This document shows positions 20,550 to 24,730 of a stretch of DNA of 33,773 bases, in pieces. The notes under the pieces were generated by a model that searched no databases, had not been told where the DNA came from, and saw only the letters and a program-made list of their open reading frames with translations. This DNA is from a virus. Within the stretch, counting starts at the first letter, position 1. Every line of letters starts with the position of its first letter. The position numbers and the translations under genes were made by a program. Location of the stretch: positions 1-33,773 of IMG/VR virus record IMGVR_UViG_3300048817_000051, one strand, 5' to 3'.

Positions 20550-22646
20550 TTAAACGGGTGCGCCTGGGCCTTGCGGGGCTTGAGCGGGTTGCGGCGGTTG
20601 CGCGCCGCTGGCTAAAAGCTGTGTCTGCAAATGCGCAGTGAACGCTTCCGGGTTAGCTACGTGAAATTTCTGCGCTGCCAATAAATTGGCGAGTTCCGTC
20701 TTAACCACATCAGCGATCAATCGGCGGTGTTCAATGTCGCCGCTCTGCGCTTTGTTCTGCGCGATGAAGCTCTCCGCGGTGTCACGGTGCGCGAGCGCCA
20801 TCGCTCGGAGCGCGTCCGCCTGCTTGATCGGATCGGGCGGCGGGGGCGGCCCCATTGCCGCTTTTTCTTCCGGCGTGGGCTCAACTATACCCTTGTGGAT
20901 AAGCATCATTCGCAGGCGCTTTGTCATTTCGTCGGCATCGGGGCTATCGATCGCCTTCGTGATCAAATCCGGTATAGCTTCCGCCAAACCGGGAACCGAC
21001 TGCGCTGCGTCAAGCAGAATCGCAAGCGATTCTTGCCGCGCGGTCTGGTAGCTCGGACCAAGAGTCACGGTGCAATCGTAACTGCCCGACTGCAAATCGT
21101 TAATGATATTGCCGCTGTCATCCTGGCCGTTGACGGTCACCTGTTTATCGGATCCGTCCCCCGCGATAATTCGCACAACGCGCGCCGTGTCGTAAACGGT
21201 CGGTATCATGTCCAAACCCATCTCGCACAGAAGTTGCAACGCCTTGCCGTAGTTGTCGATAAATTCGTGAGACCCTAAGTCACTGCGGCGCGTATGCGTT
21301 ACCAGCGCTTTGCCGCTTACGCGATTCATGTCATCCGCATTGCCTAGCGCGGGATCAAAAAAGCCGGTTGTCGCTTGAATGTCCTGCGCGGCTTTCTGCG
21401 CCATAGCAACAGATGCGGTTGGAACATCTATCGGGCTCATCCTGTACGGCGCGCCGCCGCCAGGTGTGGAGGCCGCGGTCGGGTCAACGTTAAACGGCAT
21501 ATAAACGCGAGCCGCCGCATTCGCACTATTCCAAATATCTTCAAACCCGATGATCATTTTCGGTGTGACTTGAAGCGGCGCTTTAACTCCAAGCGCTGAA
21601 CGCTCAATCGCATCACTCGATTGAAAATTGTAAGCGCGCTGAGAATCTTTCGAGTGGCGAATCAACGATTGATACTTTTTCTTACCCTCAATATTGACGT
21701 AGCGCCCCGGCATTTTCACAATCGGGATTCTTTTCCAATCGTAAACGCGAGGCCCTTCAAGAATCTGCGCGCCGTCGCATTTGACGTAGCGCACTTTGAA
21801 AGTTTTTATCTTGCGGGTCTTGACGACCTTCGCATACTGGCCGTCTGGGTTCGCCTTGCTTAAATGCTTCTCGACTGCCTTCTCTTTGCTGGTGTAATCG
21901 ATCACGCGCCCATCGGAAAGCATTGCAATTTCTTTCTCAACCGGGAAACGTTCGAAATACTCGACAACGCGGATTTGCCCGCCGCTGTACCAGCCCAAGG
22001 AATCGCGCGACATAGAGAAAGTCGAGGCTGTAAACCCAGGGTACTCAGCTTTGTATTTCTCTTCTGAGATCTTATCGCCGACCATGCACCATTGCGCATC
22101 CGCGCCGCATGGGTCGGTAAATTCCGGATCACGAACCACGGTTAACGGGTTCGGAATACCTTTTAAGCGCAATACTTGCTCAAAACCATTGTCGGAGGCG
22201 TGCTCAGGCAGCAAGCGAAGCTCGCCGAAGCCGCCGGCAACGGCGTGCTTGTAGCACTCATCGTAAATCGCTTCGGCGCGTGACTCTTGCTCAATCGAGC
22301 GCCACATGCCGCCGAAAACATCCGCGATGTCTTGCGTCGAGTTCTCACTCGAGGGGCGTACCTTGACCGCGGGCCGGGTCTGGCGCTGATCGCCAAGAAC
22401 CATATTTACTGGTTGTAAAACACGATTGAATGTGTATGACGGTCGGCCTTGACGCAGTGTCAACACTAGCGGATCCCACTGCGCACCCGATTCTGCGTCG
22501 TAGCAAAAGGCGAGATCCTCGGAATGTAAGCGCCGATTCTCTTCGTCCGCGGCGACGCCTAGCTCGTATCGGCTGTGTATCGTCGCCAATAGCTTGCGCT
22601 CGTCATCCTCTGACAAGGGTTCGTCGCCGTCCTCGTATTCGATCAA
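20550..22646 (-). CDS. Portal protein (P22 gp1-like)
   Basis: 698 residues; P22 portal is 725. It starts at TTG 22646 after an AAGGGGG ribosome site; there is no ATG or GTG between this and the terminase stop. FCYDAESGAQWDPLVLTLRQ, GRPSYTFNRVLQPVNMVLGD, QRQTRPAVKVRP and the segment YDWKRIPIVKMPGRYVNIEG are typical of the P22 portal family. A Pro/Ala/Gln-rich C-terminal tail replaces the long P22 barrel. Twelve copies form the DNA entry ring to which terminase and gp4 bind. It overlaps nothing, with short gaps on both sides. Confidence 0.93.
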   Translation of the reverse strand: MIEYEDGDEPLSEDDERKLLATIHSRYELGVAADEENRRLHSEDLAFCYDAESGAQWDPLVLTLRQGRPSYTFNRVLQPVNMVLGDQRQTRPAVKVRPSSENSTQDIADVFGGMWRSIEQESRAEAIYDECYKHAVAGGFGELRLLPEHASDNGFEQVLRLKGIPNPLTVVRDPEFTDPCGADAQWCMVGDKISEEKYKAEYPGFTASTFSMSRDSLGWYSGGQIRVVEYFERFPVEKEIAMLSDGRVIDYTSKEKAVEKHLSKANPDGQYAKVVKTRKIKTFKVRYVKCDGAQILEGPRVYDWKRIPIVKMPGRYVNIEGKKKYQSLIRHSKDSQRAYNFQSSDAIERSALGVKAPLQVTPKMIIGFEDIWNSANAAARVYMPFNVDPTAASTPGGGAPYRMSPIDVPTASVAMAQKAAQDIQATTGFFDPALGNADDMNRVSGKALVTHTRRSDLGSHEFIDNYGKALQLLCEMGLDMIPTVYDTARVVRIIAGDGSDKQVTVNGQDDSGNIINDLQSGSYDCTVTLGPSYQTARQESLAILLDAAQSVPGLAEAIPDLITKAIDSPDADEMTKRLRMMLIHKGIVEPTPEEKAAMGPPPPPDPIKQADALRAMALAHRDTAESFIAQNKAQSGDIEHRRLIADVVKTELANLLAAQKFHVANPEAFTAHLQTQLLASGAQPPQPAQAPQGPGAPV

Positions 22647-22673: not shown

Positions 22674-23411
22674 TCAGCCGGCCCAAACGGACGACACGTT
22701 TACGTGATACCAAGGCTTGTCGCCGGGGCGTTTCTTCGGCTCAACACAGGCCCTATCCAACCCAGACATAATCAAATATCTCAAGGCGTCAAGCGCGTGG
22801 TCCGGTGACTCGACGATCTTTCCGTTTTGATCGCGTCTGTAAAGGCGATATTCGCCGAGTAGTTTTGTACAACTCGAAAAAATCTTGAGGCGCCCGGTCG
22901 AGAGTCTTTCCCAAACGCGGGTTAACCCTGTAACGACTGCATTGTCCGCGGGCTCCAAATCAAGTTTGAATCCGTCGCGGTACTCTTCAATCAATTTCTT
23001 GCCGTCTTTCTGCCCGCTGCCGGCGCTTGCCGGATCTATCACCCCAGGAATCCATGCGCCTTGCGATTTGATCGCTTCGGCAACAATGCTTGGCTCTTTC
23101 TTACCAAGGTAGACTTCGTGATAAATGTATACGGTGCCGGTCGCGTTATCTAAAGCCGCGAAAACTGCGGCGTTCACATTCCAACCAACGTCAAAACCGA
23201 ACGCGCGCGGCCAGTGATCAGGAATCGGAAACGGCGCCTTCGTGATTTCATCCTCCGGTATCGGGTAGATCGCGCCGGAACCGAATGACGGAATGCCCGT
23301 CGAACGCATCGCGCGCTGCCACGGCGGAATGCTTGCCAACATCGACTCGGTTTGCTCGGCCGACAAATGCGGGCAATCGCTCCAGTTGATCTGTACGAAT
23401 GCCTTAGCCAT
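22674..23411 (-). CDS. Large terminase, C-terminal nuclease part (separate frame)
   Basis: 245 residues. The RNase H-fold nuclease half of TerL: FGFDVGWN (Asp74), VIDPAS (Asp126) and DHALDALRYLIMSGLD (Asp204/Asp208) give the acidic cluster that cuts concatemeric DNA. AFVQINWSDCPHLSAEQTES and GSGAIYPIPEDEI are the linker segments that normally continue directly from the ATPase domain. The ATG at 23411 overlaps the ATPase frame by 8 bases (ATGGCTAA). It may be made by +1 frameshifting, by coupled re-initiation as a separate subunit, or the split may be a sequencing or assembly indel. The domain itself looks intact. Confidence 0.9.
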   Translation of the reverse strand: MAKAFVQINWSDCPHLSAEQTESMLASIPPWQRAMRSTGIPSFGSGAIYPIPEDEITKAPFPIPDHWPRAFGFDVGWNVNAAVFAALDNATGTVYIYHEVYLGKKEPSIVAEAIKSQGAWIPGVIDPASAGSGQKDGKKLIEEYRDGFKLDLEPADNAVVTGLTRVWERLSTGRLKIFSSCTKLLGEYRLYRRDQNGKIVESPDHALDALRYLIMSGLDRACVEPKKRPGDKPWYHVNVSSVWAG

Positions 23412-24180
23412 CGGGTGTCGGCCTCATGTGTGGTAGGAAGTCCAACATGAGAGGCGTGATCCCCTCGACTAGCGTTGCCGTCCAAATAAGACGGCCCTTT
23501 GTCGTCATCAAACGAAGCAAGCACTCGACGAATATCTCTTGCGAGCAATCTTCGTCAAGATGAATGTGATGCTGCTCAGTTCCTTGGAAACTCTCGCGGC
23601 CTTGGTCGTAGCTCTTGAACTGGAGAGACGACAACCCCCCTGAAGAATGGCGCACGTAAATTGATTCAATGGCGTCTGCCAGACCGTGCTTAGGCGTGGT
23701 GCGCACAATCAGGTCGCCGGGAATGAACCCGGTGCCCCAGGCGTCGGGGTTGCCGGGCGGTCCGACTAGAGTTCGCTGCAAAATATCGCGAACCGTCTTT
23801 GCCGTATCACCCGCACACCAGGCGTCTACCGGGTGATCGAAGCGGTAGCCGTCCCACCACTGTGGGTAGTCGCCGGTTATATGCAACGTGTCTTCGTAGC
23901 AGCCCGCAAGCGTCTTGCCGCTTCTGTTACCGCCGAATAGCGCCCGTTCGTTATACGTCGCGCCGAGTTTGAAAAATTCTGTGTGCTTGCCGTAAAGCTC
24001 GCGTCGAAACTCGCCCGTGTCAGGATAGAAGGTCGAAATCTTCTTCCGAGACTGCCGGCGCTGCTTCTCTTCCAGCAGTTTCAACAGTTCCGATTTGTCT
24101 TTGCGGTTCAACTTCAGTGAATCGAGCGTCAATGATGGCGCCTCCGGCAAAGCGCCGGATTCGTCTGTCGAGTTCTTCAT
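23404..24180 (-). CDS. Large terminase, N-terminal ATPase part (separate frame)
   Basis: About 258 residues from ATG 24180 (a GTG one codon earlier is possible). Positions are counted from that GTG: Walker A GGNRSGKT at 84-91, Walker B IHLDED at 207-212, motif III WTAT at 234-237. The preceding helix LLKLLEEKQRRQSRKKISTF and the Phe-Phe adenine region are normal for TerL. The frame stops at TAA 23406-23404 right after FLPHMRPTPDG, exactly where the linker to the nuclease should continue. A typical TerL of this group is about 480-500 residues in one frame; the two halves add up to about 503. The first 161 bases overlap the end of the small terminase gene. Confidence 0.92.
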   Translation of the reverse strand: MKNSTDESGALPEAPSLTLDSLKLNRKDKSELLKLLEEKQRRQSRKKISTFYPDTGEFRRELYGKHTEFFKLGATYNERALFGGNRSGKTLAGCYEDTLHITGDYPQWWDGYRFDHPVDAWCAGDTAKTVRDILQRTLVGPPGNPDAWGTGFIPGDLIVRTTPKHGLADAIESIYVRHSSGGLSSLQFKSYDQGRESFQGTEQHHIHLDEDCSQEIFVECLLRLMTTKGRLIWTATLVEGITPLMLDFLPHMRPTPDG

Positions 24181-24730
24181 CACTCAGCTTCACCACATGA
24201 GTTGTTTCAAGTTTCAAAGAGTCGCGATATTCCGGCAGACGTGCCTTGAGAACCGCAATCAATAATTTGTCGTTACCGCGAAGCGCCAACTGTATGGCGC
24301 GTTCTTCAAGATGCTTTTGCGCCTTGGGGTCAGCCTCTTTCACCAGTTGCGCAAAGGCTTCGTTTTGTTCTAACTCTCGCTGGTACACGCTCGGAGATAC
24401 CCCGATTGCGTCGCGTGCGGAAGCGATATCGCCAGTGTCAACATAGGCGTCAATCAACTTAACGCGGTTTTCTGCCGTCCATCCGGCAAAAACTACGGGC
24501 TCTGATGAAGCCGTTGTCTTGTGCCGCAGTAGCGGCGGCTCCGGCGGCCGCGGCTTCTCTAGTTGGGTGCTGCGGTAACTATTGGCGCTTCGTATTTTGG
24601 CACATTTGACGCACGCGCCGTTAGCCGTATAGCGATCGTTGATATGTTGCGCGCTGCACGGCTTACCGTCGAAGAATCTTGGTAACCCGCGCGCTTTTGC
24701 CTCTGAGCGCGCAATAAGCAAGCGCGTCAC
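24020..24730 (-). CDS. Small terminase with N-terminal Cys/His zinc-binding module
   Basis: 236 residues from a GTG that overlaps the upstream stop as GTGA. The C-terminal two thirds look like a TerS: a helix-turn-helix region (ENRVKLIDAYVDTGDIASAR, then GVSPSVYQRELEQNEAFAQL), an oligomerisation helix (AQKHLEERAIQLALRGNDKL) and the tail LSDEELDRRIRRFAGG. The first 50 residues differ: RGLPRFFDGKPCSAQH, then RYTANGACVKC, gives Cys25, His29, Cys40 and Cys43. I recall this pattern from short zinc modules attached to phage HNH nucleases. TerS chooses the packaging start site and stimulates TerL. The C-terminal 54 codons overlap the TerL gene in another frame. Confidence 0.82.
   Translation of the reverse strand: MTRLLIARSEAKARGLPRFFDGKPCSAQHINDRYTANGACVKCAKIRSANSYRSTQLEKPRPPEPPLLRHKTTASSEPVVFAGWTAENRVKLIDAYVDTGDIASARDAIGVSPSVYQRELEQNEAFAQLVKEADPKAQKHLEERAIQLALRGNDKLLIAVLKARLPEYRDSLKLETTHVVKLSDEELDRRIRRFAGGAIIDARFTEVEPQRQIGTVETAGREAAPAVSEEDFDLLS

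Follow-up and report, generated by a model that had tools for sequence, protein, structure and literature searches.

Genes and features of the TerL locus

The window, by which we mean the whole stretch of DNA analysed here (33,773 nucleotides), is a complete virus record of 33.8 kb. It codes for an integrase, a primase–helicase, TerS, portal, scaffold and capsid proteins, and tail/ejection proteins. This gene set is that of a temperate podophage-like virus, and EBPR podovirus 1 is a relative. The large terminase (TerL) is encoded by two overlapping ORFs, named here TerL-A and TerL-B; their features are listed in table 1.

Table 1. Coordinates of the TerL-A and TerL-B genes and of neighbouring features in the window.
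Feature	Position	Strand	Characteristics
TerL-A, ATPase core subunit	23404..24183	-	GTG start, 259 aa; Terminase_6N (Pfam), E 1e-13, profile 3-128 of 215
TerL-A motifs	within 23404..24183	-	Walker A GGNRSGKT, Walker B HIHLDED, motif III TATLVEG
TerL-B, ATPase C-terminal segment and RNase H-fold nuclease subunit	22674..23411	-	ATG start, 245 aa; Terminase_6C (Pfam), E 1e-9
Stop/start overlap ATGGCTAA, 8 nt	23404..23411	-	TAA of TerL-A and ATG of TerL-B
N-terminal segment of TerL-B (~43 codons), with the lid region and last strand of the ATPase domain	23283..23411	-	predicted from structure alignments to intact L028
Nuclease domain of TerL-B	22677..23282	-	acidic D74, D126, D204 conserved
GAGG, Shine–Dalgarno-like	23422..23425	-	10 nt ahead of TerL-B ATG; duplex -5.6 kcal/mol
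Probable TerS	24020..24730	-	upstream of TerL-A; phrog_4044 small terminase, E 1e-7
Portal protein	20550..22646	-	downstream of TerL-B; phrog_156, E 1e-108

TerL-A has the motifs of the ASCE ATPase of large terminases, including the catalytic glutamate (LDED), and TerL-B has their RNase H-fold nuclease: the nuclease of P22 gp2 (4dkw) matches it from residue 43 (E 1e-20), and the predicted structure of TerL-B alone has a mean pLDDT of 86. The three acidic residues of the nuclease are invariant across 38 aligned split halves. No single polypeptide of the window carries both TerL domains; with the ATPase and nuclease parts on separate ORFs, this is a two-subunit TerL and not the standard one. The original prediction, made from the sequence alone, had described a TerL of normal length in two pieces with its motifs intact, which agrees with the Terminase_6N and Terminase_6C halves found here, all motifs being kept. 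The 8-base overlap that it gave for the two frames is exact: TerL-A ends in ...CCG ACA CCC GAT GGC TAA (at 23404) and TerL-B starts with ATG GCT AAG GCA (at 23411).

TerL-A matches phrog_31467 (261 aa), a family restricted to the ATPase half. Searches of NCBIfam gave no match to either half, and a phmmer search of TerL-A against the PDB found nothing relevant; a structure comparison of an intact relative was substituted.

Some other features of the locus were observed. The family phrog_31467, whose function is not annotated, corresponds to just the ATPase half of TerL and could be given a new name. Motif III of the window and of its relative L020 reads TATLVEG, with Leu replacing the usual Pro of T-x-T-P-L-x-G; this Pro is kept in 138 of the 140 representatives with a recognised motif, these two being the only ones without it. 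The ORFs of the probable TerS and TerL-A overlap by up to 164 nt (24020-24183) in different frames, less if a later TerL-A start is used; TerS and TerL also overlap in EBPR podovirus 1, by 56 nt.

Position of the break in the TerL fold

The break was mapped on a structure predicted for L028, a relative with an intact TerL (mean pLDDT 87.5). It corresponds to residue 272, where a low-confidence loop (251-273) that connects the motif III strand (232-237) to the following strand (274-279) comes to its end. Solved ATPase-only structures (P74-26: 4znl, 7ks4) align to L028 residues 50-315 and solved nuclease-only structures (P22 4dkw, SPP1, G20c) begin at residues 311-317, while Terminase_6N spans residues 83-324. 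In the split relative L023, this Pfam profile is shared across both ORFs (profile positions 2-150 and 165-214, the latter match being weak, E 0.026). Structure alignments and Pfam coverage thus place the lid region and the last strand of the core, together with the nuclease, on TerL-B, and on the model the break is about 43 residues ahead of the ATPase/nuclease boundary, inside the ATPase domain. The original prediction of a split into ATPase and nuclease frames was correct in recognizing two TerL frames, but the break does not fall at the domain boundary and the second piece is not just a nuclease, since the ATPase domain extends ~43 residues into it. When TerL-B of the window is modelled alone, the strand is unformed, residues 1-9 being coil (pLDDT 68); we infer that this N-terminal strand would dock on TerL-A.

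Distribution of the split among relatives

About 250 loci were gathered from viral contigs, phage records and bacterial genomes and compared by sequence, both TerL halves being located in each (relatives are labelled L followed by a number, and the window WIN). Clustering of the nuclease half at 95% identity gave 148 non-redundant groups: 57 are split, about 87 are intact and in four the first half was not found on the contig. L224, which the script called split through an artefact of BLAST frame choice, was counted as intact. The comparison with related phages proposed as a check in the original prediction reveals a recurrent arrangement, and all 57 split groups are broken at one point of TerL.

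The TerL-B ORF starts at the identical alignment column in 43 of the 57 splits and five codons earlier in nine others. Its usual N-terminus is M-S-K, M-A-K or M-S-R, nine residues ahead of the Trp in W-D-D-x-P-H. None of the 86 representatives scored as intact by the script has a start codon at the shared column. The number of splits at one place, together with the shared start column, rules out chance. Split TerL genes are also present in the isolate genomes of Phenylobacterium deserti, Sphingomonas melonis, Azospirillum sp. B506, Novosphingobium sp. and Sphingopyxis flava, so that metagenome assembly is excluded as a general cause. Two loci have an additional frame break, possibly due to error or decay: L008 (2480-2560), near residue 105 of the ATPase half, and L004 (1480-1540), after MAKHVVMAGW in TerL.

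The nearest relative of the window is L020, also split, with 68% identity in the nuclease half. Its TerL-A terminates at the equivalent codon (CCT GAT GTC TAA, compared with CCC GAT GGC TAA in the window), and the stop overlaps the next ORF by 8 nt (ATGTCTAA), an overlap of the same kind as in the window. This next ORF codes for a 169-aa protein of the endonuclease VII/HNH type, and its terminal TAG overlaps the TerL-B start GTG GCA AAA GCC, which is homologous to ATG GCT AAG GCA of the window (shared N-terminus M-A-K-A). Because these ends and starts are homologous, the window resembles the L020 arrangement minus the endonuclease. The closest annotated phage relatives of the window are EBPR podovirus 1 (JF412294), where TerL is intact, unlike in the window, and the Manatee Spring podovirus MW202785, which is split like the window but has a 46-aa ORF between the halves; its GenBank entry has two 'large terminase' CDS, without comment.

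Inserts between the halves and history of the split

In at least nine cases, the insert between the halves contains a gene for a homing-type nuclease, either HNH or endonuclease VII (L004, L020, L025, L065, L069, L087, L095 and L179) or T5orf172, of the GIY-YIG type (L207). Some relatives thus have the organization of homing-endonuclease 'genes in pieces', with the endonuclease ORF lying between the two halves. In L012, a 46-aa ORF resembles by eye the AP2 end (C-terminus) of the HNH-AP2 enzymes of the L025 type, without a Pfam match. The remaining inserts include tail-fibre-like, beta-helix and Dam genes, and genes of unknown family. One of the latter, in L040 (2533-4005), is a 490-aa ORF that shares 8 nt (ATGAGTAA) with the start of TerL-B. 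Three sister pairs differ by the insert alone (WIN/L020, L023/L040 and L024/L135), indicating that inserts were gained or lost between unchanged halves. The homing-type nuclease inserts suggest homing endonucleases as a cause of the split, with loss of the endonuclease as the likely history of the window. According to this scenario, an endonuclease gene would have inserted at the break point together with a stop and a new start codon, thereby creating the split state, and would later have been lost in the lineage of the window, L020 retaining one. Such a loss is likely on the basis of one close relative and parsimony, with which an endonuclease invading an already split gene fits equally well.

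The window belongs to a strongly supported clade of 17 members, with 12 other splits, three intact genes (L028, L037 and L130) and L101, in which the ORF upstream is the terminal part of an HNH-like gene. Since the three intact genes are nested among splits, re-fusion is likely there; they have long variable linkers at the junction and are candidate re-fusions (L028, 3185-4732; L037, 2766-4313; L130, 2533-4092). The tree of 145 rows, in which deep branches are poorly supported, requires at least 26 changes between the split and intact states, L101 and L240 being left unlabelled in these counts. A single common origin of the split was rejected in a 25-row tree whose rows were picked after the larger tree had been seen (AU p 2e-5 for grouping the intact rows). 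Homing with co-conversion could have spread the split state across lineages.

Expression of the two halves and selection

The spacing between the TerL-A stop and the TerL-B start in the 29 abutting splits is -4 (15 cases), -8 (seven), -1 (four), 0 (two) or +2 (one). The 8-nt overlap of the window is also found in L010, L111, L113, L105, L192 and L241; in the two cases of spacing 0 (L211 and L231), the two halves share a reading frame and are divided by a stop codon. In 28 further splits, the halves are separated by between about 40 nt and 3.3 kb of other sequence. The 29 abutting splits were scanned for frameshift signals, and none of them has a -1 heptamer or a stop-adjacent +1 motif. Neither of the hallmarks of a programmed frameshift gene, a conserved slippery site and a constant frame relation, is thus present, and the varying frame relation without a shared slippery site argues that the halves are initiated separately.

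Pairing with the anti-Shine–Dalgarno sequence is better at the TerL-B starts than at random sites of the same loci (p 4e-5). The GAGG of the window is close in strength to the sites of its capsid (-6.0 kcal/mol) and scaffold (-6.1 kcal/mol) genes, but is a moderate site that 16 per cent of random sites equal. From these sequence patterns, separate but coupled initiation of TerL-A and TerL-B is most likely. The two proteins would be translated separately from one common message, a ribosome that stops at the TAA of TerL-A re-initiating on the overlapping ATG with the aid of the GAGG. They would then join non-covalently into a working motor subunit, with the strand and lid of TerL-B docking onto TerL-A.

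Both halves are, by their substitution patterns, under strong purifying selection. Between the window and L020, pN is 0.21 and pS 0.74 for TerL-A, and pN is 0.23 and pS 0.85 for TerL-B; between L024 and L032, dN/dS is about 0.02. Among the split relatives compared, both halves have nearly saturated silent sites and few replacements, and the catalytic residues of TerL are invariant.

Comparison with known systems

Free-standing HNH endonucleases are known to break essential phage genes into two unspliced ORFs whose products reassemble, and overlapping stop and start codons occur around them (PMC2988022). The NrdA gene of Aeromonas phage Aeh1, split by mobE, and the T4 topoisomerase gp39/gp60, split by mobA, are examples (reviewed in PMC2988022). 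The TerL of the window is similar to these in being an essential phage gene in two unspliced, endonuclease-linked ORFs, and its products would presumably reassemble too. However, Aeh1 nrdA and T4 39/60 are single cases, whereas the TerL split reflects many independent gains or losses at one point, with the endonuclease mostly absent.

Interruption of terL by introns or inteins is also known (PMC7344957, PMC10448857, PMC11878797, PMC3670811, PMC12363816). In Pectobacterium CB7, ICP1, SIOphi, the Jug phages and Vibrio JA1, HNH or T5orf172 endonucleases are often nearby, as in the relatives of the window, but the interrupted terL is spliced to give one protein, while the window has no intron or intein and its halves each carry a start and a stop codon of their own. 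The open-access literature searched gave no account of an unspliced TerL of two polypeptides. Split essential phage genes are thus already known, and it is the unspliced, recurrent split of TerL that appears to be undescribed.

Alternative explanations

We estimate the probability at about 0.85 that TerL of the window is a natural two-piece enzyme, made by separate, probably coupled translation and non-covalent reassembly; the split would have arisen through insertion and subsequent loss of a homing endonuclease. The break point, its conservation, the intact motifs, the purifying selection and the lack of a shared frameshift signal are all read from the sequences compared. The T4 motor protein seems to argue against such an enzyme: according to PMC3012670, gp17 separated at the hinge retains its ATPase and nuclease but loses translocation, so that a covalent link might seem necessary. 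The artificially separated T4 parts are two proteins, as in the window, yet the natural break lies elsewhere, about 43 residues before the domain boundary, and keeps lid, hinge and nuclease together. The same two-piece enzyme might have the reverse history, a point mutation splitting the gene first and homing endonucleases invading the new junction later. Most abutting splits have no trace of an endonuclease, and the inserts include tail-fibre-like, Dam and other cargo, a variety implying that the junction behaves as a general insertion site; against this order of events, the identical start column in most lineages and the sister of the window that bears an endonuclease both fit a split brought by the endonuclease with co-conversion of the flanks, and we consider it possible but less likely.

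The original prediction had offered, besides the coupled re-initiation that the varying frame relation and the absence of a shared slippery site now favour, a +1 slip at CCC-G, giving one TerL of ~504 aa, perhaps in a fraction of translation events. The second frame is indeed +1 to the first, with the CCC three codons before the stop, but among the 29 abutting splits a CCC near the TerL-A stop occurs in the window only, and the 0-frame codon after it is GAT, not a stop. Relatives would require other shifts, or none where only an in-frame stop separates the halves (L211, L231), and in many relatives 0.1-3.3 kb of other genes do so. With no shared motif and the CCC confined to the window, frameshifting is not the common mechanism and is very unlikely in the window itself. 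An assembly or sequencing error adding one T to an intact gene could be suspected in a metagenomic virus record, where one base would join the frames; we judge it highly improbable, because in L020 TerL-A has its stop at the equivalent codon and TerL-B opens with the same AKA, the suspect T lies in a conserved Ala codon of the second ORF, the 17-member clade has 13 split members and L101, and isolate genomes are split too. The integrase means that the window could be a prophage, and thus its TerL a decaying pseudogene of a defective one, but all motifs are kept, both halves are under purifying selection relative to sister lineages with near-saturated silent sites, the start codon and Shine–Dalgarno-like site are present and the adjoining structural genes are intact. 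Decay is thus hardly credible, in line with the original view of the junction as functional. Splicing of the halves as exons, at the RNA level (intron) or in trans at the protein level (split intein), would be in keeping with the frequent terL introns and inteins of phages (CB7, ICP1, SIOphi, Jug phages) and with two relatives, L198 (2303-4741) and L199 (2195-4666), whose intact TerL proteins of 812 and 823 aa carry an in-frame, intein-like insert of ~330 aa with a LAGLIDADG-type domain. However, in the window neither a ribozyme nor an intein lies between the halves, the intervening sequence being of zero length; TerL-B has its own start codon and neither terminus bears extra intein sequence. 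Rfam introns were absent from the window and from 29 insert-bearing loci, which gave only two tRNAs, away from the junction, and the probability of splicing is next to negligible.

Implications of a two-gene motor

TerL serves as a single-copy hallmark gene, on the assumption that it is one chain. For T4, force generation has been modelled with a covalent chain linking the ATPase core, the lid and the nuclease. A motor encoded by two genes is surprising, given that T4 packaging is destroyed when the motor protein is cut in two in the laboratory. On balance, we lean towards the view that this podophage/prophage lineage has repeatedly evolved two-polypeptide motors broken inside the ATPase fold, with TerL-B completing the sheet and keeping lid, hinge and nuclease whole, and that the junction is a standing insertion site for homing endonucleases and cargo, where re-fused genes also arise. 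In this lineage, half of TerL can be overlooked by automatic annotation. Motors with a natural break between core and lid would reveal which covalent link is dispensable and would offer a clean two-part reconstitution. More generally, the insertion point of a homing endonuclease in an essential machine may turn into a lasting gene organization.
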